Shown here: positions 5,231 through 32,165 of the stretch, piece after piece
How positions within the stretch are numbered: the stretch's first letter is position 1
Layout: each line of letters begins with the position of its first letter
NCBI RefSeq assembly: GCF_016907495.1
Contig: NZ_JAFBCC010000001.1
Span: 1,860,001 to 1,924,000 of the forward strand
Length of the DNA stretch: 64,000 bases
Direction: 5' to 3'
From: Arthrobacter tumbae
Lineage (GTDB): Bacteria; Actinomycetota; Actinomycetes; Actinomycetales; Micrococcaceae
Notes under the pieces: model-generated
Database searches by the model: none
What the model was told of the DNA's origin: nothing
The model's input: only the letters and a program-made list of their open reading frames with translations
Made by a program: the position numbers and the translations under genes

Positions 5231-7348
5231 ATGGCAACAGAGACAGCTGCGAAGCCCAAGGGCAGCATGCGCGTCGGCGTCCAGAAGTTCGGGACGTTCC
5301 TGTCCGGCATGATCATGCCCAATATCGGTGCGTTCATTGCCTGGGGGCTCATTACCGCGCTCTTCATTGAAGCGGGCTGGCTTCCGGTTGCGGAGCTGGG
5401 CGGCTTCGGTACTGATGCGGAGGGCAACCCGAATATCGGCCTGGTCGGGCCTATGATCACCTACCTGTTGCCGCTCCTGATCGCCTACACCGGCGGCCGG
5501 ATGGTCTATGACGTCCGTGGCGGCGTCGTGGGTGCAATCGGCACTATGGGCGTGATTGTCGGCGCAGGCATCCCCATGTTCATCGGCGCCATGATCATGG
5601 GCCCGCTGGGCGGCTGGACCATGAAGAAGATCGACAGAATCTGGGACGGCAAGATCAAGCCCGGCTTCGAAATGCTGGTCAACAACTTCTCCGCCGGCAT
5701 CTGGGGTGCAGCGCTCGCGCTGATCGGCTTCTACGGCATCTCCCCGATGGTCGAGGCGTTCAGCACGGCCGCCGGCAACGTGGTCCAGTTCCTGGTGAAC
5801 AACGGACTCCTGCCGCTGACCAGCATCTTCATCGAGCCTGCCAAGGTTTTGTTCCTCAACAATGCCATCAACCACGGCGTGCTCACCCCGTTGGGTGTCC
5901 AGCAGTCGCTGGAGGATGGCAAGTCCATCCTGTTCCTCCTCGAAGCAAACCCCGGCCCGGGCCTCGGCATCCTGCTGGCGTACATGTTCTTCGGCCGCGG
6001 CATTGCCAAGGCATCCGCTCCCGGAGCTGCAATCATCCACTTCCTCGGAGGCATCCACGAGATCTACTTCCCGTACGTCCTGATGCGCCCGCTGCTGATC
6101 CTGGCCGCCATTGCCGGCGGTATGACCGGAATCGCGACGCTCGCCGTCACCAATTCCGGCCTGGTTGCTCCTGCCGCTCCCGGCTCGATCATCGCTGTAC
6201 TCGCCCAGACCGCCCGAGACAGCTACTTCGGTGTGATTCTCTCGGTGATCCTTGCGACCGCTGTGTCTTTCCTGGTTGCCTCGGTGATCCTGAAGACTTC
6301 AAAGCAGAAGGACGACGACGGCGATGAGGGCGGTCTTGCGGCCGCCATCTCGCGGATGGAATCCATGAAGGGCAAGAAGAGCTCGGTCGCCTCCAACCTG
6401 ACCGGTGGCGGAAACGTTGCCGTGATGGCCGGACCGATCCAGAACATCGTCTTCGCCTGCGACGCCGGAATGGGCTCAAGCGCCATGGGCGCATCGGTGC
6501 TGAGGAACAAGATCAAGGCGGCCGGCTACCCGGACGTCAAGGTCACCAATGCCTCGATTGCCAATCTGCGTGACGACTACGACGTCGTGGTGACGCACCA
6601 GGACCTGACGGAACGGGCCAAGCCCGCTACCTCCAGTGCCGTGCACGTTTCCGTGGACAACTTCATGAACAGTCCGCGGTATGAGGAAATCGTTGATCTG
6701 GTCAAGGAAAGCCGCAGCGACCGGGTGGATGCGGATGATGCGGCGGGTAGCGGTGCCGGCTCGGATGCTGATGCCGGATCGTTCGGCGGCGCGCACGCCG
6801 CCGGAGCGCATGCGGGCGGAAACGCGGCGGAAGAGGCAGTCGGCGGCACGTCCTCCGACTCCCGTGGAGCCGGCGCACACGCTGCCGGAGCGTCGGCGCA
6901 CGGTGAGGAAGCGACGTCGGACATCCTGGTTGCCGAGAGCGTTGTGCTCAGCGGTTCCTCGACCTCCCGCGACGCAGCCATTGACGAGGCAGGGCAGCTG
7001 CTGCTGGCCCGCGACGCAGTGGATGAGGGCTACCTCCGCGCCATGCACGAACGTGAGGAATCCGTGTCCACTTACATGGGCAGCTTCCTGGCGATCCCGC
7101 ACGGCACCAACGCGGCCAAGGGCCACATCCGCAAGTCCGCGGTGTCCTTTATCCGCTACCCGGAGGGAATCGACTGGAACGGCAAGGAGGTCAAGTTCGT
7201 GGTCGGTGTGGCCGGGGTGAACAACGAGCACCTGCACATCCTGTCCTCCATCGCGAAGGTCTTCACGGATAAGGCGCAGGTGGCCCAGCTGGAGGCAGCG
7301 ACCTCGGCTGAGGAGATCCTCGAAATCTTCCGGAAGGTCAACGCATAG
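5231..7348 (+). CDS. mtlA: Mannitol-type PTS permease EIICBA
   Basis: A 705-aa fusion that imports mannitol and phosphorylates it. Residues 1-350 form the EIIC membrane domain (GTFLSGMIMPNIGAFIAWG, INHGVLTPLG, GAAIIHFLGGIHEIYFPYV). EIIB follows with phosphocysteine C410 in FACDAGMGSSAMGAS. The C-terminal EIIA domain carries phosphohistidine H624 in FLAIPHGTNAAKG. Between B and A lies a Gly/Ala/His/Asp-rich linker (about residues 497-566). The ATG at 5231 is chosen because it begins the conserved start; the frame is open further upstream but overlaps the TetR gene. The stop overlaps the mtlD start by one base (TAGTG). Confidence 0.95.
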   Translation: MATETAAKPKGSMRVGVQKFGTFLSGMIMPNIGAFIAWGLITALFIEAGWLPVAELGGFGTDAEGNPNIGLVGPMITYLLPLLIAYTGGRMVYDVRGGVVGAIGTMGVIVGAGIPMFIGAMIMGPLGGWTMKKIDRIWDGKIKPGFEMLVNNFSAGIWGAALALIGFYGISPMVEAFSTAAGNVVQFLVNNGLLPLTSIFIEPAKVLFLNNAINHGVLTPLGVQQSLEDGKSILFLLEANPGPGLGILLAYMFFGRGIAKASAPGAAIIHFLGGIHEIYFPYVLMRPLLILAAIAGGMTGIATLAVTNSGLVAPAAPGSIIAVLAQTARDSYFGVILSVILATAVSFLVASVILKTSKQKDDDGDEGGLAAAISRMESMKGKKSSVASNLTGGGNVAVMAGPIQNIVFACDAGMGSSAMGASVLRNKIKAAGYPDVKVTNASIANLRDDYDVVVTHQDLTERAKPATSSAVHVSVDNFMNSPRYEEIVDLVKESRSDRVDADDAAGSGAGSDADAGSFGGAHAAGAHAGGNAAEEAVGGTSSDSRGAGAHAAGASAHGEEATSDILVAESVVLSGSSTSRDAAIDEAGQLLLARDAVDEGYLRAMHEREESVSTYMGSFLAIPHGTNAAKGHIRKSAVSFIRYPEGIDWNGKEVKFVVGVAGVNNEHLHILSSIAKVFTDKAQVAQLEAATSAEEILEIFRKVNA

Positions 7349-19920: not shown

Positions 19921-21057
19921 GTGATGACTTACACGCCCGACGCGATCCGCCACGTCAAACTCTCCACCGCCACGCTGCCGCTGGCCACGCCAATCTCCGA
20001 TGCCAAGGTTTTCACCGGCAGACAGAAGCCCATGACCGAGGTGGTCTTCCTCTTCGCGGAGATCCTCACGGAGCAGGGCGTGTCCGGCCTCGGGTTCTCC
20101 TACTCGAAGCGGGCGGGCGGCCCGGCGCAGTATGCGCATGCACGGGAAGTTGCCGAGATTCTGATCGGCGAGGATCCCAACGACATCGCCAAGCTGTATA
20201 ACAAGTTGCTCTGGGCCGGCGCTTCCGTGGGCCGCTCCGGTGTTGCCACCCAGGCGCTCGCAGCGCTGGACATCGCGCTGTATGACCTGAAGGCGAAGCG
20301 CGCCGGGCTCCCGCTCGCAAAGCTGCTCGGTGCCCACCGGGACTCGGTGCGCACCTACAACACCTCCGGCGGCTTCCTCAACGCCTCGATCGATGAGGTG
20401 AAGGAGCGCGCCACCCAGTCGCTCGCGGAGGGCATCGGCGGCATCAAGATCAAGGTGGGCCTGCCGGACTCCTCCGAAGACCTGCGCCGCGTTGCAGCCG
20501 TCCGCGAGCACATCGGCCCCGACGTGCCGCTGATGGTGGATGCGAATCAGCAGTGGGACCGCGCGACCGCCCTGCGCATGGGCCGCAAGCTTGAGCAGTT
20601 CGATCTGGTCTGGATTGAAGAACCCCTGGACGCGTACGACGCCGAAGGGCACGCAGCGCTGGCACTGGCACTTGATACTCCGATCGCCACGGGCGAGATG
20701 CTCGCGTCCGTCGCGGAGCATGAGCGGCTCATTGCCACCCGCGCCTGCGACATCATCCAGCCTGACGCGCCGCGCGTCGGCGGCATTACCCAGTTCCTCC
20801 GGCTCGCCACGCTGGCGGACCAGGCGGGCCTCGACCTCGCGCCGCATTTCGCCATGGAGATCCACCTGCACCTCGCCGCCGCGTATCCGCGCGAACCGTG
20901 GGTTGAGCACTTCGACTGGCTGGACCCGCTGTTCAACGAGCGGCTCGAGACCAGTGAAGGTCGCATGATCGTCCCCGACCGTCCAGGCTTGGGCGTGACC
21001 CTCAGCGACCAGGCGCGGGCGTGGACCACGGACAGCGTCGAGTTCGGTGCGCGCTGA
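19921..21057 (+). CDS. L-talarate/galactarate dehydratase (enolase superfamily)
   Basis: A 378-aa mandelate-racemase-subgroup enzyme that dehydrates galactarate (and L-talarate) to 5-dehydro-4-deoxyglucarate. It matches my memory of the Salmonella TalrD/GalrD enzyme over long stretches: LLWAGASVGRSG, GLPLAKLLGAHRDSV, FPLMVDANQQWDR-type metal site, WIEEPLDAYDAEGHA, IQPDAPRVGG and LAPHFAMEIHLHL. The catalytic KxK (GIKIKVG), metal ligands D, E, E and the His base are present. Start is GTG 19921 or ATG 19924. A GntR gene follows 46 bases later. Confidence 0.9.
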   Translation: MMTYTPDAIRHVKLSTATLPLATPISDAKVFTGRQKPMTEVVFLFAEILTEQGVSGLGFSYSKRAGGPAQYAHAREVAEILIGEDPNDIAKLYNKLLWAGASVGRSGVATQALAALDIALYDLKAKRAGLPLAKLLGAHRDSVRTYNTSGGFLNASIDEVKERATQSLAEGIGGIKIKVGLPDSSEDLRRVAAVREHIGPDVPLMVDANQQWDRATALRMGRKLEQFDLVWIEEPLDAYDAEGHAALALALDTPIATGEMLASVAEHERLIATRACDIIQPDAPRVGGITQFLRLATLADQAGLDLAPHFAMEIHLHLAAAYPREPWVEHFDWLDPLFNERLETSEGRMIVPDRPGLGVTLSDQARAWTTDSVEFGAR

Positions 21058-21103
21058 CGCCCGCCGTGCCTGGCAGCCGTAACGGCGTGTCAGCATTAAC
21101 GTC

Positions 21104-21805
21104 ATGAAGCAAACGTTGGCCGTCTCGCTCGTCGACAGCCTCCGCCGTCGGATCGTGGACGGCACTATCCCCTCCGGCGAGAAGCTGCCGAGCGAAAGCG
21201 CGCTCATCGGCGAGTTCGGTGTCAGCCGCACGGTGGTGCGGGAGGCGGTATCCCGGCTCCAGGCCGAGGGACTTGTGTATACCCGGCGGGGGAGCGGCAG
21301 TTTCGCGCTGACCCCGCCGTCCCCGGACGAAGACTCGACGGGCGGCATGCGGCGGCCCCGTACCCTGGAGGAGCGGCGCGCGCTGCTGGCGTTTCGCGGG
21401 GGCATCGAGAGCGAAGCCGCTGCGCTCGCCGCCGGTAACGCCACTCCGGCGATGGTCACTGCGCTGGATAACGCCCTCGCGGCATTCGACGCCGCCGGCA
21501 ACCACGCCGCGACGGCCGTCTCCTGCGACTTCGCTTTCCACCGGGCCGTGGCCGAGGCCAGCGGAAACTTCTACTTCGTTGACGCGCTGCTGTCGCTGGG
21601 GCCGGCCATGATTGCGATGCCGCCGGAGCGTCTCGAACCAGCCGACGACGGCGGCCAGTCAGAGCGGTTGCAGCGCGTCGCTCTCGAGCATGCCGCGGTG
21701 CGCAACGCGATAGCTGCAGGGGATCCTCTGACCGCCGCCGCTGCCATGCGCCTCCACCTGGCGAACTCGCGGTCCCGGCTGGGCGGAGAATCCGGGCAGG
21801 GGTAG
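21104..21805 (+). CDS. GntR-family (FadR/FCD subfamily) regulator
   Basis: A 233-aa regulator. Winged helix at residues about 8-70 (SLVDSLRRRIVDGTIPSGEK, SESALIGEFGVSRTVVREAV, LQAEGLVYTRRGSGSF) and a C-terminal FCD ligand domain with the expected Asp and His metal-site candidates (CDFAFHRAVAEASGN; EHAAVRNAI; AMRLHLANSRSRL). It sits immediately downstream of the galactarate dehydratase gene and probably represses it through 19859-19871 until an aldarate or its product binds. Confidence 0.9.
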   Translation: MKQTLAVSLVDSLRRRIVDGTIPSGEKLPSESALIGEFGVSRTVVREAVSRLQAEGLVYTRRGSGSFALTPPSPDEDSTGGMRRPRTLEERRALLAFRGGIESEAAALAAGNATPAMVTALDNALAAFDAAGNHAATAVSCDFAFHRAVAEASGNFYFVDALLSLGPAMIAMPPERLEPADDGGQSERLQRVALEHAAVRNAIAAGDPLTAAAAMRLHLANSRSRLGGESGQG

Positions 21806-22413: not shown

Positions 22414-22815
22414 CTAGTCCCGGCCGTCCGGCTTAACCGCGAGCACCGGGCGGTCCGCCTGCAGGAGGATCCGCTGCGCGTGCGAACCCATGATGAACTT
22501 CCCCACCTGCGTGCGCTGGCGAAGCCCGATCACGATAAGCGAGACGTCGTGTTCGACCGCGAGCTCGAGAATTTCATCCGCAAGGTCATCCCTGTGGGAG
22601 GGGCGAAGGACGCGTGCGGTGATCCCGGCGTCGTCGGCTGATTTTTGAAGCCGGATGAGATCCTCGTCACTGGCAACCGACTTGTCCACGCGGGAGCCCT
22701 CGCGCACGGAATTGACGATCAGCAACTCCTCGTCGCGGAGCTTCGCCTCGGTGATTGCTGCGGCAACTGCGGCTTCGCCGACAGGGGTGGGCACGTAGCC
22801 GACCATGATGCTCAT
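22414..22815 (-). CDS. Universal stress protein (UspA family)
   Basis: A 133-aa single UspA domain: MSIMVGYVPTPVGEAAVAAA at the N-terminus and the ATP-binding signature in GLRQRTQVGKFIMGSHAQRI (G-x2-G-x9-G-S-like). It is the last gene of the tctC-tctB-tctA unit with a 36-base gap. Small UspA domains often accompany TctCBA and TRAP transporters; a regulatory role for the transporter is plausible but unproven. Confidence 0.88.
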   Translation of the reverse strand: MSIMVGYVPTPVGEAAVAAAITEAKLRDEELLIVNSVREGSRVDKSVASDEDLIRLQKSADDAGITARVLRPSHRDDLADEILELAVEHDVSLIVIGLRQRTQVGKFIMGSHAQRILLQADRPVLAVKPDGRD

Positions 22816-22851: not shown

Positions 22852-24366
22852 TTAGGAATCTGCGCTGACGCGGGTGGTGTCGCGCTGGCGGCGAGCCAGA
22901 GCGGACTTGATCATGGGGCCTACTGCTACCAGGACAAAGATCACCAGCAGGGTGGCTGAGATGGGTCGGGTGAGGAAGCCCGAAACGTCGCCTTCGAGCA
23001 CCAACAGTGAGCGGCGGAGGTTCGACTCGAGGAGCTCACCGAGCACGAACGCCAGAACCAGCGGCCCTGGCTCGAAGCCGAACTTCTTCATCAGGTAGCC
23101 GAGTGCGCCGAAGAGCACCACGAGCAGGACATCGAACATCGAGTTGCGGATGGTGTACGCGCCGAGGATGGTGATCAGCGCCGTGATAGGCGCGAGGATG
23201 GCGGCCCGTACCCGGAGGATCTTCACGAACAGCCCCACCAGCGGGATGGACAGGATCAGGAGCAGGATGTTCCCGATGTACATCGAGTTCACCACGCCCC
23301 AGAACAGCTCCGGGTCTTCGGAAATAAGTTGAGGCCCCGGCGTGATGCCGTGGATCAGCAGTGCTCCGAAGATGATGGCCATGGTGGCGTTCGCCGGGAT
23401 GCCGAGCGTGAGCAGCGGGATGAAGGAGCTGGTGGCGGCTGCGTTGTTGGCGGTCTCCGGGCCTGCCACGCCCTCGACGGCGCCCTTGCCGAAACGGGAG
23501 GGGTCCTTGGCCCGCTTCTTCTCGACCGCGTAGGAAACCATGGAGGAGATCGTTGCGCCGCCGCCGGGAAGGATGCCGAGGAAGAAGCCCAGGACGGAGC
23601 CGCGGCCGATCGCGCCGGAGGACTTGCGGAGGTCAGCGCGGGAGGGCCACACGTTGGCGACCTTCGCCGGCGCGCTGACCGCGCGGTGGCGTTCCTCAAG
23701 GTTGTAGAGGATCTCGCCGATGCCGAACAGGCCCATGGCGATGGGCACGAAGTCGATGCCGTCTGCGAGGCTCAGGTTGCTGAACGTGAAGCGCTCGGCG
23801 CCGGTGAAGACGTCGCGGCCCACGGTCGCCAGCAACAGGCCGACTGCGGCGGCAATGAGCGCCTTGATCTTGGTTCCGCCGCTGATGGTTGCGACCAGCA
23901 GGATGCCGACGAGGGCGAGGGCGGTGTACTCCGGCGGGCCGAAGTCGAGCGCGAAGCTGGCTACCAGTGGAGCCAGGAAGGTGAGGCCGATGATGGCGAC
24001 CGTTCCACCGATGAACGACCCGATGGCGGCGATGCCCAGGGCGGTTCCGGCTTTGCCTTGCTTCGCGAGGACGTAACCGTCAAACACGGTCACCACGGAG
24101 CTCGCCTCGCCGGGAAGCCGCAGGAGAACGGAGGTGATGGTTCCGCCGTACTGGGCACCGTAGAAGATGCCGGCGAGCATGATGATCGCGGTGACGGGGT
24201 CGATGCCGTAGGTCAGGGGCAGCAGGATGGCGATGGTTGCTGCGGGACCGAGGCCGGGCAGCACGCCGATGAGCATGCCGATCACCACGCCCATCAGGCA
24301 GTAGAGAAGGTTCTGCGGGTCCAGAACGACGCCGAAGCCGTTGAGAACCGGGTTGAAGAAGTCCAT
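22852..24366 (-). CDS. tctA: Tripartite tricarboxylate transporter, large membrane subunit TctA
   Basis: A 504-aa integral membrane protein with about 11-12 hydrophobic segments. The family signatures are GVLPGLGPAATIAILLPLTY near the N-terminus and the second-half copy GILPGGGATISSMVSYAVEK, plus GPETANNAAATSSFIPLLTL. It forms the sodium- or proton-coupled channel of a TctCBA importer. Gene order and the flanking aldarate enzymes suggest galactarate/glucarate as substrate rather than tricarboxylates. Confidence 0.93.
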   Translation of the reverse strand: MDFFNPVLNGFGVVLDPQNLLYCLMGVVIGMLIGVLPGLGPAATIAILLPLTYGIDPVTAIIMLAGIFYGAQYGGTITSVLLRLPGEASSVVTVFDGYVLAKQGKAGTALGIAAIGSFIGGTVAIIGLTFLAPLVASFALDFGPPEYTALALVGILLVATISGGTKIKALIAAAVGLLLATVGRDVFTGAERFTFSNLSLADGIDFVPIAMGLFGIGEILYNLEERHRAVSAPAKVANVWPSRADLRKSSGAIGRGSVLGFFLGILPGGGATISSMVSYAVEKKRAKDPSRFGKGAVEGVAGPETANNAAATSSFIPLLTLGIPANATMAIIFGALLIHGITPGPQLISEDPELFWGVVNSMYIGNILLLILSIPLVGLFVKILRVRAAILAPITALITILGAYTIRNSMFDVLLVVLFGALGYLMKKFGFEPGPLVLAFVLGELLESNLRRSLLVLEGDVSGFLTRPISATLLVIFVLVAVGPMIKSALARRQRDTTRVSADS

Positions 24367-24390: not shown

Positions 24391-24954
24391 TTAGAACAGG
24401 TGGGGGATCGACGTCCCCAGTCCGAGGATGAAGATGGCGTAGAAGGCTGCCACAACGAGCACTGAATAGAGAGTGGCTGAACGCCAGGTCTCGCCGCCGA
24501 GGAACTTCATCCACACGAAGCACAGCAGCAGTGCCGGAATCTCGAATCCGATGACCGGCATCAGCCACACCATGCCCAACAGCGTGACGAAACCGAAGGC
24601 CGCCATCCGGGACAGCGGGGAGAACTTCTCGCCATCTACACCCCCGCGCCGGCCGATGATCAGCTGCGCGAGGGCGAGGACGGTGATGATGAGACTGATG
24701 ATGAACGGCCACGTGCCGGGACGTGGCTCCCCCGGTGTGCCCAGGCCGAGACCTACGGCAATGACCATGCCTGCGATGCCGACGCCGGCCGCCACCAGTG
24801 AGGCGGCAAGGTTGGCGATCGAGCCCGACGGCGGCGCGGAGTCTGCCGCCCATTCGGCGGCGAGTTCCTCCGGCGTCAGGTCCGGTGCGCCGAGGACGTC
24901 CGTGGAGTCACTCTCGGCTTCGTAGTCGCGCTTCCGGTTCATGGCAATGCTCAT
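24391..24954 (-). CDS. tctB: Tripartite tricarboxylate transporter, small membrane subunit TctB
   Basis: A 187-aa protein with a charged N-terminal tail (about 45 residues) and four membrane segments (SIANLAASLVAAGVGIAGMV; PFIISLIITVLALAQLIIG; FGFVTLLGMVWLMPVIGF; ATLYSVLVVAAFYAIFILG), the usual TctB topology. It lies between tctC and tctA with short gaps (36 and 24 bases). A second ATG four codons downstream (MNRKRDYEA) is an alternative start. Confidence 0.88.
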   Translation of the reverse strand: MSIAMNRKRDYEAESDSTDVLGAPDLTPEELAAEWAADSAPPSGSIANLAASLVAAGVGIAGMVIAVGLGLGTPGEPRPGTWPFIISLIITVLALAQLIIGRRGGVDGEKFSPLSRMAAFGFVTLLGMVWLMPVIGFEIPALLLCFVWMKFLGGETWRSATLYSVLVVAAFYAIFILGLGTSIPHLF

Positions 24955-24990: not shown

Positions 24991-25995
24991 TTACTCGCCG
25001 GAGAGCGAGATGTCGTATTCCTCAATCAGCGCCTTGTACTGCTCTGCGAGTGCGTTCCACTCTTCGACGACCTCTTCCCCGGTTACTTCCCACGGGGCAA
25101 GGATGTTTTCCTGGTTGAACTCCTGGTACGACTCGGTGGCCTGGGTGGCTTCGACGGACTCAACCAGCCGCGCCTTCGCATCCTCGGAAAGGCCCTTCGG
25201 TGCAGCGAGCGCACGGTACTGCGAAACCGGAACCTCGTAGCCTTCCTCGATGGCGGTCGGAGTGTCAGGCAGGAACTCGTTGCGCTCCTTCGCGAACGTA
25301 ACGATCGGAGTCACGGTGCCCGCCTCGATCTGCGGAAGGGCTTCGCCGAGCTGAATGGTGGAGACGGCAACCTGGTCACCCATGACGGCGGTGAGTGCCG
25401 GTGAACCTGAATCGAACGGTACAGCGGTTCCGTCAATCTCGGCCTGTGCGAACAGGACTGCCTGGGCCAGCTGCGAACCGGTGCCGACGCCGGTGGTGCC
25501 GAAGTTCAGCGGATCGCTGCTCTCCTGGATGTCGGCCAGGGTCTCAAAGCCTGACTCCTTGCTTGCGACCAATACGTAGTCGTCCTGGGAGAGGCCCTTG
25601 ATGACGTCGAGGTCATCGAGGGTGACGGCTTCACCTTCAGGAACGGTGAGGGATGTGATGGTGATCAACGATGCGTTGAGGAGGATGAGGTTCTGGCCAT
25701 CGGGCTCCATGGCGGCGACCTCCTTGGTGGCCAGCGCGCCGTTGGCTCCGGCCTTGTTCACTACGGGCACGGCTATGCCGAGGTCCTCCGCCATGCCATC
25801 GGCAATCGCACGTGCGATGCGGTCGGTCGAGCCGCCGGCGTCCTGGCCAACAGTGAGGGTGATGGGGCCGCTTGGAAACGCTTCGCCGGATTCGGCGCTG
25901 CCCCCGGCCACGTTTCCGCCGCAGGCTGACAGGGCGAGAACGCCGGCAGCTGCGGTGGTTGTGATCAGGGTGCGGCGGGTAAGTGATGCTTTCAC
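24991..25995 (-). CDS. tctC: Tripartite tricarboxylate transporter, substrate-binding protein TctC
   Basis: A 334-aa lipoprotein: RR-containing signal (KASLTRRTLITTTAAAGVLA) with lipobox LSAC. The mature part has the TctC pattern PSGPITLTVGQDAGGSTDRI, VVNKAGANGALATKEVAAME and LNFGTTGVGTGSQLAQAVLF. I chose GTG at 25995 because GAGGAG lies 8 bases upstream and the signal peptide follows at once; longer in-frame extensions reach into the divergent lysR gene. First gene of the tctC-tctB-tctA-uspA unit. Confidence 0.9.
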   Translation of the reverse strand: MKASLTRRTLITTTAAAGVLALSACGGNVAGGSAESGEAFPSGPITLTVGQDAGGSTDRIARAIADGMAEDLGIAVPVVNKAGANGALATKEVAAMEPDGQNLILLNASLITITSLTVPEGEAVTLDDLDVIKGLSQDDYVLVASKESGFETLADIQESSDPLNFGTTGVGTGSQLAQAVLFAQAEIDGTAVPFDSGSPALTAVMGDQVAVSTIQLGEALPQIEAGTVTPIVTFAKERNEFLPDTPTAIEEGYEVPVSQYRALAAPKGLSEDAKARLVESVEATQATESYQEFNQENILAPWEVTGEEVVEEWNALAEQYKALIEEYDISLSGE

Positions 25996-26084
25996 GAGTT
26001 GGTACTCCTCATTCAGGAACGGCGTTGTTCGGCTACAGGCCTGGAGCAAAGATGTGATGGCACTCACGGCTCGGCCCTGAGAAG

Positions 26085-26151
26085 ACTGTACGGAGCGGCT
26101 ATGATGCATGTCCAAGCCAACATATGCATGAAGTGATACCCGGAAGGCATC
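26085..26151 (-). promoter_or_regulatory. tctC promoter with LysR-type operator module
   Basis: Read on the minus strand: the imperfect palindrome GATGCC-n5-GGTATC (26151-26135, containing a T-N11-A core), a 16-base spacer, then GGCTTGGACATGCATC (26118-26103), which includes a -35-like TTGGAC (26115-26110). A -10-like TACAGT follows at 26090-26085 after 19 bases. The same architecture with the same 16-base spacer precedes kdgD (27035-27100). It also covers the lysR start region. Confidence 0.6.
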
Positions 26152-27036
26152 ATGTTTACTCTCGATCAGGCACACAGTTTCGTCATCGTTGCCGAAGAGC
26201 TGCACTTCGGGCGGGCAGCCGAACGCCTTAACATGACCCAGCCCCCGCTAAGCCGCCAGATCCAGAAACTGGAGCGCAGCGTCGGCGTAGAACTGCTGTT
26301 GCGCGATAACCGGAAAGTGTCCCTTACTGCTGCCGGCCGCGCCTTCCTCGTCGAAGCCCGGAAGTTGGTTGTCGCCGCTGAACGCGCACCAAGGACGGCG
26401 CAGCGGATCGCGGCCGGCAAGTCCGGACAGTTGCGGGTCGGGTTCACGGCCGCCTCCGGCTTCAGTTTGCTTGGACCGCTGCTGACCGAGATCGCAACGG
26501 AACTGCCCGACGTCGATGTGGAGCTTCAGGAGCTCGTCACCGGTGAGCAGCTGGCAGCGATTATCGACGGCGACCTGGACCTTGGCCTCGCACGGCCGGC
26601 TTTCGACGCCGACCTCTTCGAGTCCCATCTGATGTTCACCGAAGATCTCCTGCTGGCTGTCCCCTCCGGGCACGAGCTTGATCAGCTGAACCGCTCGTTG
26701 ACGGTGGCGGACCTCAAGGGTGTGCCCCTGATCATGCATTCTCCGACGAAAGCCCGGTACTTCTACGACCTGGTGGTTCGCTCCATCCCCGTGGAGCACG
26801 GCAACGTAGTTCATACGGTGAGCCAGGTCCTCACGATGGTGGCGCTGGTAGCTGCCGGACGGGGAGTGGCCTTCGTGCCGGAGTCGACGAGCCTGCTCGG
26901 CGTGGAGGGCGTCTCCTACCTGAGGCTGGCGGATATTGAACCGGACGCCGTCGAACTGTATGCCATTTGGAGCAGGGAGCTGCGTAATCCGGCCCTGGGC
27001 AGACTTCTTGAGGTCATCCGCACCAAGGACCTCTGA
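26152..27036 (+). CDS. LysR-family regulator of aldarate genes
   Basis: A 294-aa LysR-type regulator. N-terminal winged helix: ELHFGRAAERLNMTQPPLSR (residues about 14-33) and QIQKLERSVGVELLLRDNRK; the rest is a periplasmic-binding-like effector domain (LRVGFTAASGFSLLGPLLTE). It is divergent from tctC and reads toward kdgD. Both those promoters carry one duplicated operator-like module, so this protein most likely controls uptake and catabolism together and its own expression. The effector is presumably an aldarate or pathway intermediate. Confidence 0.92.
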   Translation: MFTLDQAHSFVIVAEELHFGRAAERLNMTQPPLSRQIQKLERSVGVELLLRDNRKVSLTAAGRAFLVEARKLVVAAERAPRTAQRIAAGKSGQLRVGFTAASGFSLLGPLLTEIATELPDVDVELQELVTGEQLAAIIDGDLDLGLARPAFDADLFESHLMFTEDLLLAVPSGHELDQLNRSLTVADLKGVPLIMHSPTKARYFYDLVVRSIPVEHGNVVHTVSQVLTMVALVAAGRGVAFVPESTSLLGVEGVSYLRLADIEPDAVELYAIWSRELRNPALGRLLEVIRTKDL

Positions 27037-27100
27037 TACCCGCAGGGCATCAATCCATACAAAAGTGGGCTTGGACAGGCATCACCTGACTTCCTACGGT
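27035..27100 (+). promoter_or_regulatory. kdgD promoter with LysR-type operator module
   Basis: GATACC-n5-GGCATC (27035-27051, T-N11-A core), a 16-base spacer, then GGCTTGGACAGGCATC (27068-27083), identical to the tctC copy at 15 of 16 bases. It contains -35-like TTGGAC (27071-27076) and, 18 bases on, TACGGT (27095-27100). With a start near 27107 the palindrome centre lies near -64, where LysR recognition sites usually sit. Confidence 0.6.
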
Positions 27101-27168: not shown

Positions 27169-28116
27169 GTGGCCCAGTACGCGCCCCATGAACTCGCCCA
27201 GAAGCTGAAGGACGGCCTGCTGTCCTTCCCGGTCACCGCCTTCACGCCCGAGCTGGCCGTGGACGAGGACGCCTACCGGCAGCACCTGTCCTGGCAGGCG
27301 AGCTTCGACGTCGCCGGTCTCTTCGCGGCCGGCGGTACCGGTGAGGGTTTCAGCCTGACGCCGGCAGAAGCAGCGCAGGTCATCCGCGCGGCCGTTGAGG
27401 AGGTCGGCACCAAGGTGCCTGTCCTCGCCTCCGCAGGTGGTTCCACTGCCCAGGCTATCCAGAACGCTCAGGACGCCGAAGCTGCCGGCGCCGAGGGCCT
27501 GCTGCTGCTCCCGCCGTACCTCACCGAGTGCGACCAGGAGGGGCTGCTGGCCCACGTCAGCGCCGTCTGCTCCGCGACCTCGATCGGCGTCATCGTCTAC
27601 AACCGCGCCAACGCCATCTACTCGGCGGACACCGTTGCCCGCCTCGCTGAGCGCCACCCGAACTTCATTGGTTTCAAGGACGCCGTCGGTGATATCGAGC
27701 ACCTCACGAAGGTCTACGCCAGGAACGGGGACCGGCTCTTCTACCTGGGTGGCCTGCCCACCGCCGAGACCTTCGCCCTCCCGCTGCTGCAGCTGGGAAT
27801 GAGCACCTACTCTTCGGCGCTGTACAACTTCGTTCCCGAGTTCGCGCTTGAGTTCTATGGCGACGTCCGGAGGCAGGACCACGCAGCGGTCACCGAGAAG
27901 CTGCAGCGCTTTGTGCTGCCCTACCTCGACATCCGCGACCGGGTGCGAGGTTACGGCGTCTCGATCGTCAAGGGTGGGCTGAAGGTCGTCGGCCGCGATG
28001 TCGGCGGCGTCCGCCCGCCGCTGCAGAACCTGACGGAGGCTGATCTTACTGACCTAGGGGCGCTCATCGACGCCGCCGGTATCCGTCCTGCACCCGCCGC
28101 GCTCACCAACGCCTGA
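27169..28116 (+). CDS. kdgD: 5-dehydro-4-deoxyglucarate dehydratase (decarboxylating)
   Basis: A 315-aa DHDPS-fold class I enzyme converting 5-dehydro-4-deoxy-D-glucarate to 2,5-dioxovalerate with loss of CO2 and water. Key blocks: FAAGGTGEGFSLTPAEAAQV (substrate/GT(G/T)GE loop), Tyr in GVIVYNRANAIYSAD, and the Schiff-base Lys in NFIGFKDAVGDIEHL. GTG at 27169 has AAGGAA eight bases upstream. It takes the product of both dehydratases in the region; the next gene encodes the following step. Confidence 0.93.
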   Translation: MAQYAPHELAQKLKDGLLSFPVTAFTPELAVDEDAYRQHLSWQASFDVAGLFAAGGTGEGFSLTPAEAAQVIRAAVEEVGTKVPVLASAGGSTAQAIQNAQDAEAAGAEGLLLLPPYLTECDQEGLLAHVSAVCSATSIGVIVYNRANAIYSADTVARLAERHPNFIGFKDAVGDIEHLTKVYARNGDRLFYLGGLPTAETFALPLLQLGMSTYSSALYNFVPEFALEFYGDVRRQDHAAVTEKLQRFVLPYLDIRDRVRGYGVSIVKGGLKVVGRDVGGVRPPLQNLTEADLTDLGALIDAAGIRPAPAALTNA

Positions 28117-28166: not shown

Positions 28167-29813
28167 ATGCCTACGCAGCACGCCACACTTCAGGGTCACT
28201 CCATCATCGCAGGGCAGGGAATTGCCGGTAGCGGCAAGACCGTCAACGGTTTCAATCCGGCGACCAATGAGACGCTGGAGCCCGGCTACTCCCTGATCGA
28301 CGAGACACAGCTCAGGGAAGCGACCTCCGCCGCGGAGGAAGCGTTCGGCTCCTTCAGCAACCTCGACCCCGAAACCCATGCGTCCTTCCTGGCGAGCATC
28401 GCAGACCGCATCGAAGCATCGGGTGAGGAGATCGTTGCCCGCGCCATGCTCGAGACGGGCCTGCCGGAACCGCGCATGCGCGGTGAGCTGGCCCGCACCA
28501 CCGGCCAGCTGCGCCTCTTCGCCTCGGTGGTTCGCCAGGGCGATCACCGCGGCGTCCGGATCGATCCTGCGCAGCCCGACCGCGCGCCGATGCCGCGCGC
28601 GGACATCCGGCAGCGAAAGGTGCCCCTCGGTCCCGTCGCCGTCTTCGGTGCGAGTAACTTTCCGCTGGCCTTCTCCACTGCCGGCGGTGACACTGCGTCG
28701 GCGCTCGCCGCCGGCTGCCCGGTGATCTTCAAGGCGCATAACGCCCACCCCGGCACCAGCGAGCTGGTTGGCCGCGCCATCACGGAGGCAGTGAACGACG
28801 CCGGTCTCCACCCGGGCGTCTTTTCCCTCATCTACGGTCCCGGTGCCAGTATCGGCCAGGCCCTCGTCTCGGATCCGGTCATCCAGGCGGTCGGCTTCAC
28901 AGGCTCCCGTTCCGGCGGCACAGCGTTGATGGCAACAGCTGCCGCACGCACCCAGCCCATTCCGGTGTACGCGGAGATGAGCTCCATCAACCCGGTGATC
29001 TTTTTCGAGGGTGCGCTGCAGGACGATCTCGACGGGCTTGCCACCGCGTATGTCACCTCTGTCACCGGGTCCAGCGGACAGCTGTGCACCTCGCCGGGCC
29101 TGGTCTTCGTGCCAACCGGCGACGCCGGCGACAACTTCCTTGCCGCAGTCACCCGTGCGCTCGCACCGTCGGCAGGACAAACCATGCTCACCCGCGGAAT
29201 CGCGGACTCCTGGACCGCAGGCGTTGAAGCGCTCGGCTCGCAGGACGGCGTCGAGCTGGTCGCCCAGGGGACAAACGGGGCTACCGAGAACGCGCCCGCA
29301 CCGGTTGTCTACGGCACCCAGGCGGAAACGTTCCTGAACAACCCCGTGCTGCACGAAGAGATCTTCGGCGCCGCGTCCCTCGTGGTGCGCTACTCCTCTC
29401 CAGAGGAGCTGGTTGCGGCCGCGAAGCGCCTCGAAGGGCAGCTGACCGCCACCCTCCACCTCACCGGGTCCGACTACGACACCGCGGCCGGCGTCCTGCC
29501 CGTCCTGGAGCGCAAGGTTGGCCGCATCCTCGCCAACGGCTGGCCCACCGGCGTCGAGGTTGGCCACGCGATGGTTCACGGCGGCCCGTTCCCCGCGACC
29601 TCGGATACTCGGACGACGTCGGTCGGTACCCTCGCGATCGAGCGTTTCCTGCGGCCGGTCGCCTATCAGAACATCCCTGAGCTGCTCCGCCCCGCTGCCG
29701 TCCGGGACGGCAATCCCTGGAAGCTGAACCGCCGGATTGACGGCACGGTAGTGCCGGCAACGGAGGGCGAGGGCAGCGGTTCAACCGTCAAGGCCACCGG
29801 GGAGGACGCGTGA
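28167..29813 (+). CDS. 2-oxoglutarate semialdehyde (2,5-dioxovalerate) dehydrogenase
   Basis: A 548-aa aldehyde dehydrogenase superfamily enzyme oxidising 2,5-dioxovalerate to 2-oxoglutarate. Motifs: [20 protein letters not shown] (cofactor region), [12 protein letters not shown] (Rossmann loop), catalytic Glu in [13 protein letters not shown] and catalytic Cys in [14 protein letters not shown]. The length and the short AEMSSINP block fit the KGSADH class used in aldarate pathways. It lies 50 bases after kdgD; its stop overlaps the gudD GTG start by 4 bases. Confidence 0.9.
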
Positions 29814-31138
29814 CCGCCCAGCCAACCATCGCCGTCGTCGAGGTTGTCCCGGTTGCCGGGCACGATTCGATGCTGCTCAATCTCTCGGGAGCGCACGGGC
29901 CGTTCTTCACCCGCAACGTCGTCATCATTACCGATTCCGATGGACGGACCGGGCTCGGTGAGGTTCCCGGCGGGGAGGCGATCCGCTCCACCATCGTGGA
30001 AGCAGGACGGCTGCTGACGGGCAAGCCGGTAGCGCGTTTCCGCAGCCTCCTGCGCGTCGTCGCCGCTGCGTTCGCTGATCGTGACGCCGGCGGCCGCGGA
30101 CTCCAGACGTTCGACCTGCGCACAGCGGTCCATGCGGTCACCGCGATTGAGTCGGCGTTGCTGGACCTGCACGGCCAGTTCCTCGGCGTTCCTGTTGCCG
30201 AGCTCCTCGGCGACGGCCAGCAGCGCGACGCGGTGCCGATGCTGGGGTACCTCTTCTACGTGGGAAGCCCGGACTCCACGGGCCTGCCGTACTTGCGCGA
30301 GCAGGGTTCCTCTGACGAATGGGAGCGTGTCCGGCGGGAAGAAGCGATGACGCCTGCCGCCGTCGTCCGCCTGGCCGAAGCAGCGCAGGCACGCTACGGT
30401 TTCGCGGACTTCAAGCTCAAGGGCGGAGTGCATGCAGGCGATGACGAGGTGGACGCCGTCGCCGCGCTCAAGGAACGCTTCCCGGACGCGAGGATCACGC
30501 TCGATCCGAACGGGGGCTGGCTGCTGGAGGATGCCATCCGGCTGGGGAAGCGGATGCAGGGAGTCGTGGCCTACGCCGAGGACCCCTGCGGCGCCGAAGG
30601 GCGGTTCTCCGGCCGTGAGGTCATGGCGGAGTTTCGCCGCGCAACCGGGCTGAAGACAGCGACCAACATGATCGCGACCGACTGGCGGGAGATGGCTCAC
30701 GCCGTTCGCACCAACGCCGTGGACATCCCGCTCGCTGATCCGCATTTCTGGACCATGGCCGGCTCGGTCCGGGTGGCGCAGCTGTGCAACGAGTTCGGGT
30801 TGACCTGGGGATCGCACTCCAACAACCACTTCGACATCTCGCTGGCCATGTTCACCCACGTGGGAGCTGCCGCACCGGGCGAGATCACGGCGATGGACAC
30901 GCACTGGATCTGGCAGGACGGGCAGGGGCTCACCACCGATCCGCTGCAGATCCGTGGCGGCGAGATCAGGGTGCCGGACGCGCCCGGACTCGGCATCGAG
31001 CTGGACCGCAGCCGCCTCGAGGAAGCGCACGCGCTCTACCTTGAGCACGGTCTGGGCGCCCGCGATGACGCTGCGTCCATGCAGTACCTGATCTCCGAGT
31101 GGACGTTCGACCCGAAGAGGCCCTGCCTGGTCCGGTAG
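29810..31138 (+). CDS. gudD: Glucarate dehydratase
   Basis: A 442-aa enolase-superfamily enzyme dehydrating D-glucarate to 5-dehydro-4-deoxyglucarate, the KdgD substrate. Family features: [40 protein letters not shown], catalytic KxK in [20 protein letters not shown], metal ligands in [18 protein letters not shown] and [23 protein letters not shown], and the His base in [19 protein letters not shown]. The GTG start overlaps the preceding stop, so it is coupled to the dehydrogenase gene. Confidence 0.95.
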
Positions 31139-31178: not shown

Positions 31179-32165
31179 GTGGAGGGGGTTCTCCTCGGGT
31201 TCGGCATTGTCCTGGCGCTGGTTGGCGTTGGCATTGCCGCCTCAATCCTCCTCCCAACCCGCACCCGGGCCATGCAGGAGGGCCTCACGCCGGTGATTTA
31301 CTACATCACCAACCCGGCGCTCATGTTCATCCTGCTCGCCGAGACCGAGCTGGCTGAAGTCCTGAGCATCTACACGCCGATTGCGCTGATTGTTGCCGCC
31401 GGAACCGCCGCTGTCTATGCGCTGTTCAGCCGCTTCATCCTCAAGCGCGCGGCCGCACAGACCGCGGTGGGTGCGATGGCGTCCTGCTACGTCAATGCCG
31501 GCAACATCGGCATCCCGATTGCACTCTATGCGGTGGGCAGTTCAGCCCCCGTGGTGTCGGTGCTGCTGGCCCAATTGCTGGTGATCGCGCCGGTTTTCCT
31601 CACGATCTTCGCCTGGTGCGGCAGGAAGACAAGCTCCGCCGGTTCATCGCTGTCGCCCGGCTCGGCCGGTGGTTCCACGTCTCCGCGCAGCTCACCGACG
31701 CTTGCGCGGACGGTCTTGCGCTCGGTGGCCAATCCCGTCACTCTCGGGACAGCCGCAGGGGCGCTGTTCGCCGCCACCTCGCTCACGCTGCCGCCGATCA
31801 TCTGGACTCCGCTGGAGATGCTTGGCCAGGCGTCGATCCCGCTGCTGCTGATGGTTTTCGGTATGAGTCTCCGGGGACAGAAGCCGCTGGCACAGCGGAG
31901 CCTCCGTGCCGACGTCGTGCTCGGGAGCGTAGTGAAGCTCGCGCTGATGCCGGTCATCGCGTGGGCGGTTGCGTACTATCTCTTCCGCGTTGAGGGCACA
32001 GCGCTGCTCGGCGTGGTGGCGATGGCGGCTCTGCCGACCGCGCAGAACGTGTTCCTGTTCTCCGCCCAGTTCGGGTTGAAGGTCACGCTGGTCCGCGACA
32101 TCATTCTGATGAGTTCGCTGCTGGCGCTGCCGGCGTCACTGCTGGTGGCGGTGTTGCTGGGCTGA
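31179..32165 (+). CDS. AEC-family (auxin efflux carrier-like) membrane transporter
   Basis: A 328-aa protein with about 10 membrane segments. Typical AEC features: TPVIYYITNPALMFILLAET, SCYVNAGNIGIPIALYAVGS (the conserved N-x-GN-x-G-x-P region) and AALPTAQNVFLFSAQFGLKV near the C-terminus. GTG at 31179 with CAGGAGGG upstream. It follows gudD by 40 bases in the same direction and may be in the aldarate transcript; the family moves organic acids, so an aldarate-linked role is possible. Confidence 0.85.
   Translation: MEGVLLGFGIVLALVGVGIAASILLPTRTRAMQEGLTPVIYYITNPALMFILLAETELAEVLSIYTPIALIVAAGTAAVYALFSRFILKRAAAQTAVGAMASCYVNAGNIGIPIALYAVGSSAPVVSVLLAQLLVIAPVFLTIFAWCGRKTSSAGSSLSPGSAGGSTSPRSSPTLARTVLRSVANPVTLGTAAGALFAATSLTLPPIIWTPLEMLGQASIPLLLMVFGMSLRGQKPLAQRSLRADVVLGSVVKLALMPVIAWAVAYYLFRVEGTALLGVVAMAALPTAQNVFLFSAQFGLKVTLVRDIILMSSLLALPASLLVAVLLG

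Follow-up and report, generated by a model that had tools for sequence, protein, structure and literature searches.

The 64,000-nucleotide stretch of Arthrobacter tumbae DNA analysed here (the window) carries a gene for a LysR-type regulator between genes for aldarate uptake and genes for aldarate breakdown, with similar 49-base modules upstream of tctC on one side and of kdgD on the other. The question raised by this locus is whether the two modules are operator-promoters of the regulator encoded between them.

The gene cluster

The genes of the cluster were assigned as follows:

22852-24366, minus strand: tctA, downstream of tctB
24391-24954, minus strand: tctB, downstream of tctC
24991-25995, minus strand: tctC, receptor of a tripartite tricarboxylate transporter
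26152-27036, plus strand: lysR, LysR-type regulator of 294 aa (profile models)
27169-28116, plus strand: kdgD, 5-dehydro-4-deoxyglucarate dehydratase (TIGR03249, above cut-off)
28167-29813, plus strand: aldehyde dehydrogenase, below the cut-off of every listed model and presumed to act on alpha-ketoglutarate semialdehyde
29810-31138, plus strand: glucarate dehydratase-like (TIGR03247, 788.6 bits against a cut-off of 828.7)
31179-32165, plus strand: permease of the Mem_trans family, following in the probable kdgD operon

lysR lies between the two modules, as described in the first-pass annotation; it is flanked by tctCBA on the minus strand and the kdgD genes on the plus strand and is divergent from tctC. 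For the D-glucarate/galactarate pathway, KdgD and a talarate/galactarate dehydratase scored above their cut-offs and the glucarate dehydratase fell just below. The genes of the talarate/galactarate dehydratase (19921) and of a GntR/FCD regulator (21104) adjoin the cluster at 19921-21805. A universal stress protein gene (22414-22815) lies on the same strand as tctA, 36 bases after its end, and may be a member of the tct operon.

Two 49-base modules in the window

Direct recounting bore out the coordinates, strands and counts given earlier. The tctC-side module, 26151-26103 on the minus strand, reads GATGCCTTCCGGGTATC-N16-GGCTTGGACATGCATC, and the kdgD-side module, 27035-27083 on the plus strand, reads GATACCCGCAGGGCATC-N16-GGCTTGGACAGGCATC. 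They are identical at 37 of 49 positions and at 15 of the 16 positions of the second box, both with a fixed 16-base gap, and their flanks are unlike. The lysR frame is tightly bracketed, the tctC-side palindrome stopping one base short of the ATG and the kdgD-side palindrome starting within the stop codon.

The probability of at least 37 matches in 49 is approximately 3e-13 per placement, with about 18,000 placements between the two upstream regions. When all 49-mers of the window were compared on both strands, 10 diagonals with at least 37 matches were obtained, mostly nearby repeats or hairpins. One unrelated pair, at 24239 and 49965, also agreed at 37 of 49 positions, so that identity alone is not decisive without the matching promoter positions. 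The string GATNCC-N5-GGNATC with zero mismatches occurred in the window at just the two module sites; with up to two mismatches, the palindrome pattern was not enriched there (42 matches against 36.5 expected). A module matrix run over the window gave +68 and +70 bits for the two copies and -15 bits for the next best site. Across the whole genome, the full pattern (gap of 14-18 allowed) matched exactly twice, at the two modules. The second box with up to two mismatches had five other matches in the genome, compared with eight for a reversed control pattern, and none of the five had a module site above 20 bits. No third site was found in the genome with the exact full pattern and the second box at up to two mismatches, or in the window with the matrix.

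Conservation across actinobacteria

Related loci were collected by LysR protein search. At the genus level, 12 of 38 genomes matched at E <= 1e-40, two of them via a 41-42% identical paralogue only; at the family level, 113 of 395 genomes matched at E <= 1e-60; and the genome-contig collection gave 65 loci. The resulting 102 LysR loci comprised 85 with distinct lysR DNA. A weight matrix was seeded with the two window modules, then iterated, being trained on the loci that it scored, and yielded 140 sites in 73 of the 85 distinct loci: 64 before kdgD, 55 before tctC, seven before enolase-family dehydratase genes and 14 unassigned. Five of the last group were assigned by Pfam to two GntP permeases, a KDPG aldolase, an HpcH/HpaI aldolase and a 2-hydroxyacid dehydrogenase; their scores were lower (29-48 bits), and as predicted targets they fit a sugar-acid signal. 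The loci include Glutamicibacter, Paeniglutamicibacter, Kocuria, Promicromonospora, Geodermatophilus, Modestobacter, Saccharothrix, Pseudonocardia, Nocardioides and Brevibacterium. Comparison of these upstream regions, by which the proposed module was to be judged, showed it to be conserved at both tctC and kdgD across actinobacteria, and other genera retain the two as separate copies at LysR identities as low as approximately 58-60% (e.g. L076-L078, L095).

Because the matrix was trained on the scored loci, two checks were made outside the training set, on 20 loci of another genus and on 16 of 20 regulator loci without the box (L165-L184). The 20 other-genus loci were picked by the tctC-side box, and their kdgD-side copies scored 46-60 bits in 20 of 20. 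L165-L184 represent 20 of the 48 family genomes that have the regulator without the exact box, and four of them lie on training-set contigs. A module above 20 bits was present in 18 of the 20, or in 15 of 16 leaving out those four; the exceptions were L165, with 7 bits, and L167, with nothing. The exact box itself occurred in 65 of the 113 family genomes with the regulator (absent from the other 48) versus 9 of the 282 without it, with a Fisher p of ~2e-33 that is uncorrected for relatedness and, the genomes being related, is not a true probability. None of these nine box-bearing genomes without the regulator has a module site above 20 bits, and the same holds for five further box-only places in regulator genomes.

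The spacing was assessed with the palindrome and CTTRGAC as independent exact strings in 58 tctC and 69 kdgD regions. All regions holding both strings had them at the same distance (28/28 for tctC and 60/60 for kdgD). CTTRGAC without the strict palindrome was present in a further 16 tctC and 8 kdgD regions, and exact CTTRGAC was absent from 13 of the 58 and 1 of the 69, respectively. Strict regular expressions for the palindrome were dropped in favour of matrix scores and relaxed half-sites, since they under-count where several genera carry GGAAT in the right half.

Anatomy of the module

The anatomy was derived from 113 distinct modules of actinobacterial LysR loci, 50 of them tctC-side and 63 kdgD-side. 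The corresponding predicted elements in the window are listed below, with their frequencies among these modules:

26135-26151, minus strand: tctC-side recognition site GATGCC-N5-GGTATC (ATGC-N7-GTAT, T-N11-A), ending one base before the lysR ATG
26126-26129, minus strand: tctC-side first activation-site half-site ATGC, module positions 23-26 (ATRC in 46/50)
26109-26114, minus strand: tctC -35 TGGACA, by promoter scan (TRGACA in 50/50)
26104-26107, minus strand: tctC-side downstream half-site GCAT, module positions 45-48 (GYAT in 50/50)
26085-26090, minus strand: tctC -10 TACAGT, spacer 18, by promoter scan
26100-26105, plus strand: candidate lysR -10 TATGAT nested in the tctC module, by promoter scan, with CTGAGA at 26077-26082 and spacer 17
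27035-27051, plus strand: kdgD-side recognition site GATACC-N5-GGCATC, its first two bases being the last two of the lysR stop codon
27057-27060, plus strand: kdgD-side first activation-site half-site ATAC (ATRC in 45/63, ATNC in 55/63)
27072-27077, plus strand: kdgD -35 TGGACA (TRGACA in 62/63)
27079-27082, plus strand: kdgD-side downstream half-site GCAT (GYAT in 53/63)
27095-27100, plus strand: kdgD -10 TACGGT, spacer 17, from the spacing in relatives

The invariant or near-invariant columns were A2 T3, A15 T16, A23 T24, T37 T38 R39 G40 A41 C42 A43, A47 T48 and T58, followed by C5, G13, C26, G45 and the TANNNT at 62-67. Mean information was 1.77 bits in the half-site columns and 0.12 in the flanks; the remaining columns of the 49, leaving out the -35, averaged 0.75. 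Based on this column conservation, the recognition site was taken to be ATRC-N7-GYAT. On the tctC side, its half-sites were present as ATRC in 47/50, GNAT in 50/50 and GYAT in 34/50 modules, and on the kdgD side as ATRC in 59/63 and GYAT in 62/63. Position 6 was a pyrimidine in 94/113 modules and position 12 a purine in 103/113.

The 16-base spacer was not blank: it contains ATRC exactly 21 bases past the first recognition half-site. A weak right half-site, GGCT, follows at N7 from ATRC (28/50 tctC-side, 40/63 kdgD-side), and GCAT makes a right half-site 11 bases beyond GGCT. ATRC, GGCT and GCAT therefore stand at 21, 32 and 43 bases from the first half-site (approximately two, three and four helical turns), and the half-site centres, at 3.5, 14.5, 24.5, 35.5 and 46.5, fall on one helix face. 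The columns of ATRC (23-26) carry 2.4, 2.5, 0.6 and 1.3 bits and those of GCAT (45-48) carry 1.5, 1.1, 2.2 and 2.3 bits, and it is this conservation that marks a putative activation site between the palindrome and the -35/-10. The second box did not hold as one motif, the -35 being flanked by these half-sites. Differences between the two promoters were also seen, with G at position 25 in 0.88 of tctC copies, A at that position in 0.56 of kdgD copies, and positions 28-30 A-rich at kdgD.

The claim of a -35-like element in the second box stood with a change of hexamer: TTGGAC, as first proposed, matches TTGACA at 3/6 positions and was dropped in favour of TGGACA, one base on, which matches at 5/6. 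The promoter scan independently reported TGGACA-18-TACAGT for tctC; in the scan of the kdgD upstream region the kdgD promoter was not reported, its -10 TACGGT matching at 3/6. TANNNT lies 17 or 18 bases past the -35 in 87 of the 88 regions having CTTRGAC and the strict palindrome. The -35 is TRGACA in 112/113 modules and TTGACA in 0/113, a conserved defect such as would be expected of an activator-dependent promoter. Assuming a start 7 bases past the predicted -10, the imperfect T-N11-A palindrome is centred at about -64 to -65, in agreement with the -64 of the first-pass annotation.

Loci with and without a divergent tctC

Relatives with and without a divergent tctC were compared over 72 orthologue loci, one without it being dropped for an adjoining N stretch. 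With divergent tctC present (53 loci), the palindrome was kept in 53/53 (matrix part >8 bits) and the GACA of the -35 was in register in 51/53; with divergent tctC absent (18 loci), the palindrome was found in 10/18 and GACA in 1/18 (L084). Eight Brevibacterium loci of the latter kind had neither a palindrome before lysR nor GACA. For seven of nine genomes without divergent tctC, no tctC relative was found anywhere at E <= 1e-40. L041, from Arthrobacter subterraneus, has a LysR that is 93% identical and the same palindrome as the window; the GACA of its -35 has become TACA and the module scores 48 bits.

Two genomes have tctC apart from lysR: in one the distance is about 12 kb, and in the other tctC is on a different contig, beside a 42% LysR paralogue. 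In both, the relocated tctC has a full module (58 and 63 bits), and the lysR-side copy is decayed or gone. In Brevibacterium L092 and L093, too, the displaced tctC is preceded by the module. Two Saccharothrix loci (L081, L083) were exceptions, having kept divergent tctC and lost the second box. In Brevibacterium L087, the stretch that separates kdgD from a GntP permease gene, at 4 kb from lysR, has two modules facing apart (1753-1890).

A candidate lysR promoter within the tctC module

The candidate lysR promoter, CTGAGA-17-TATGAT, has its -10 overlapping the downstream half-site of the tctC module. TANNNT in this register was present in 28/50 tctC-side versus 1/63 kdgD-side modules (p ~7e-12, uncorrected for relatedness), being missing in exact register from 22/50 tctC-side copies, and in 0/4 modules before relocated tctC. 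Among 22 loci without divergent tctC, 16 had a strict palindrome near the lysR start. In those 16, the lysR -10 was in exact register in seven and within two bases in 10, ATRC was present in one and TRGACA in none; 14 of the 22 loci were drawn from genomes chosen for having no exact box, so the 0/16 for TRGACA arises partly by selection. The eight loci not so chosen gave 0/8 for GACA and 7/8 for the strict palindrome. GCATC, kept in tctC-less loci, was considered as a regulator half-site; this was weakened by its coincidence with the lysR -10.

According to PMC8407307, LysR proteins in general might regulate their own genes by binding the recognition sites there. The nested lysR -10 and the retained palindrome fit such predicted autoregulation. 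One regulator had been proposed to couple aldarate uptake, catabolism and itself. The predicted self-control emerged better supported than claimed, via the candidate lysR -10 nested in the tctC copy, and the coupling of uptake and catabolism stood as a prediction for tctC and kdgD. It did not extend to the whole aldarate cluster, which is covered only in part, as the module matrix found no module in the window upstream of the talarate/galactarate dehydratase gene (19921) or gntR (21104). These two genes may form a separately controlled galactarate branch.

The regulator protein and known systems

Both LysR domains were identified in the regulator, the helix-turn-helix domain PF00126 (77.5 bits) and the substrate-binding domain PF03466 (126.9 bits), which places it in the family. 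The nearest named models were AlsR, HcaR, BenM and CatM, every one below its cut-off; the NCBIfam scores against cut-offs were 218/430 bits for AlsR, 128/600 for BenM and 125/580 for CatM. The regulator is not a member of the BenM, CatM or AlsR equivalogs. AlsR, compared by protein model alone, was the best full-length NCBIfam match, covering residues 7-290. The recognition helix QPPLSRQIQK is that of CatM and differs by one residue from that of BenM; all 72 of 72 orthologues have QPPLSRQIQK or QPPLSRQVQK, in which the position of CatM K38 is a lysine. The nearest named relative of the protein, where very close records may have been left out, is from Arthrobacter sp. Soil782 (99% identity).

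As reported in PMC6628147, the recognition site of BenM and CatM is ATAC-N7-GTAT, the form ATAC-pyrimidine-N5-purine-GTAT favours CatM, which has K38, and in the model Sites 1+3 repress and Sites 1+2 activate. By analogy, Sites 1+3 would correspond here to the recognition site plus GGCT-N7-GCAT, over the -35, and Sites 1+2 to the recognition site plus ATRC-N7-GGCT, beside the -35. The likeness to the benA and catB systems extends to the T-N11-A form of the recognition site, the flanking pyrimidine and purine, the lysine at CatM position 38, a second site adjoining or over the -35 and catabolic target genes (PMC6628147). The pathway, however, is another one, and here one full module stands at two target promoters flanking the regulator gene. 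VirR-icgA of Rhodococcus equi likewise involves an actinobacterial LysR-type activator, with a partial T-N11-A dyad at -74 to -58 and a second protected region at -51 to -35 that was read as an activation site; its genes and signal differ, and no palindrome was found in its downstream region (PMC11724031). Closest by function is Halomonas, where TctABC is predicted for aldarates and co-regulated with aldarate breakdown; there, GguR belongs to the GntR family, unlike the LysR-family regulator of the window (PMC5507952). Neither a description of this regulon nor a LysR protein for aldarate use in these actinobacteria was found in the open-access papers searched.

Judged by the features that can be tested from sequence, each module has the make-up of a putative LysR-type promoter, and the recurrence of the layout in many actinobacteria makes it a well-kept instance of a familiar type of gene switch.

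Related genera (L015, L016, L145-L150, L152, L160) also carry a LysR paralogue (38-42%) whose gene diverges from that of a second enolase-family dehydratase; a search of the window genome at E 1e-40 did not find it. These loci have the same layout with a near-identical second box and a changed palindrome (ATTC-N7-GAAT in 6/10), which suggests two regulators sharing an activation half. In the paralogue, residue 39 (leucine or isoleucine in place of lysine, assigned to loci by elimination) covaries with positions 6/12 of the operator (A/T in place of C/G) in L015 and L016 but not in L013 and L014, and this stays a lead. In L096 (~5950-6000), a Pseudomonas LysR relative (41%) is accompanied by GGGTTTGGACATGCAT and a palindrome-like site, below the matrix threshold, before a divergent enolase-family dehydratase and a DHDPS-family gene; the layout may therefore extend beyond actinobacteria.

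Interpretation and alternatives

The two copies are predicted, with a probability of roughly 0.8, to be operator-promoters of the LysR-type regulator encoded between them, and the earlier interpretation of a LysR-regulated module at tctC and kdgD is supported by the comparative data. In the proposed mechanism, one dimer of a LysR tetramer would hold the recognition site. Without inducer, the other dimer would sit on GGCT-N7-GCAT over the -35 and block it. An inducer from the aldarate pathway (judging by the targets, one would first guess an aldarate or an intermediate of the pathway) would let the second dimer shift one turn upstream to ATRC-N7-GGCT and activate. Uptake (tctCBA) and breakdown (kdgD, aldehyde dehydrogenase, glucarate dehydratase and permease) would thereby be switched on jointly. 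At the tctC copy the sites overlie the candidate lysR -10 and reach up to the start codon, and the regulator would in this way limit its own synthesis. As GGCT is weak, the sliding register is the least secure step of this explanation.

That weakness, together with the -35 providing the strongest columns of the second box, would suit a simpler arrangement in which the palindrome is the regulator's only site and the second box a conserved core promoter, served by simple recruitment without an activation-site shift. A core promoter has no need, however, of ATRC at 23-26 and GCAT at 45-48, which are well conserved and keep helical phase with the palindrome; the overlapping lysR -10 may contribute part of the GCAT signal at tctC, but the kdgD side has no such overlap. 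We regard simple recruitment as unlikely. Binding of the module by another regulator of the cluster is very improbable, even for the foremost candidate, the GntR/FCD protein at 21104. Its gene lies inside the same cluster, and the GntR-family GguR of Halomonas is predicted to act over TctABC and aldarate genes (PMC5507952).

GntR operators are palindromes too. Yet of 49 loci with a module above 40 bits, 45 exceed 11 kb, and 19 of these 45 contain no gntR relative within the locus; the gntR and dehydratase upstream regions of the window are without the module; and the T-N11-A/ATRC-N7-GYAT form, the location near -65 and a recognition helix resembling that of CatM all suit the LysR protein. Recent duplication of one upstream region with no shared regulation, to which 37/49 identity inside one 1-kb stretch might point, is scarcely credible given copies kept separately in other genera, lasting promoter-specific differences and unlike flanks.

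Returning to the LysR-type operator-promoters, a broader reading, for which we would give even odds, is that the LysR sliding dimer has left in the module a record frozen by evolution. It would hold a recognition site and two activation registers that overlap at a middle half-site and span an unchanging poor -35; the -10 of the regulator gene would lie inside just one of the copies, and gene gain and loss in relatives would have separated the parts. In those relatives, the palindrome is often kept, the -35 and ATRC go with tctC, and the lysR -10 is found in about half. Within this reading, and at the same even odds, palindrome retention in tctC-less relatives would serve autoregulation. If it is true, the LysR register model could be tested over many natural promoters rather than one mutated one.

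For a large actinobacterial group, the analysis defines a predicted regulator of aldarate use together with its operator and targets. The natural alignment is large enough to separate the recognition and activation sites from each other, from the -35 and from the promoter of the regulator gene, and the module is a ready search pattern that in relatives also stands before further genes of sugar-acid type (GntP permease, two aldolases).
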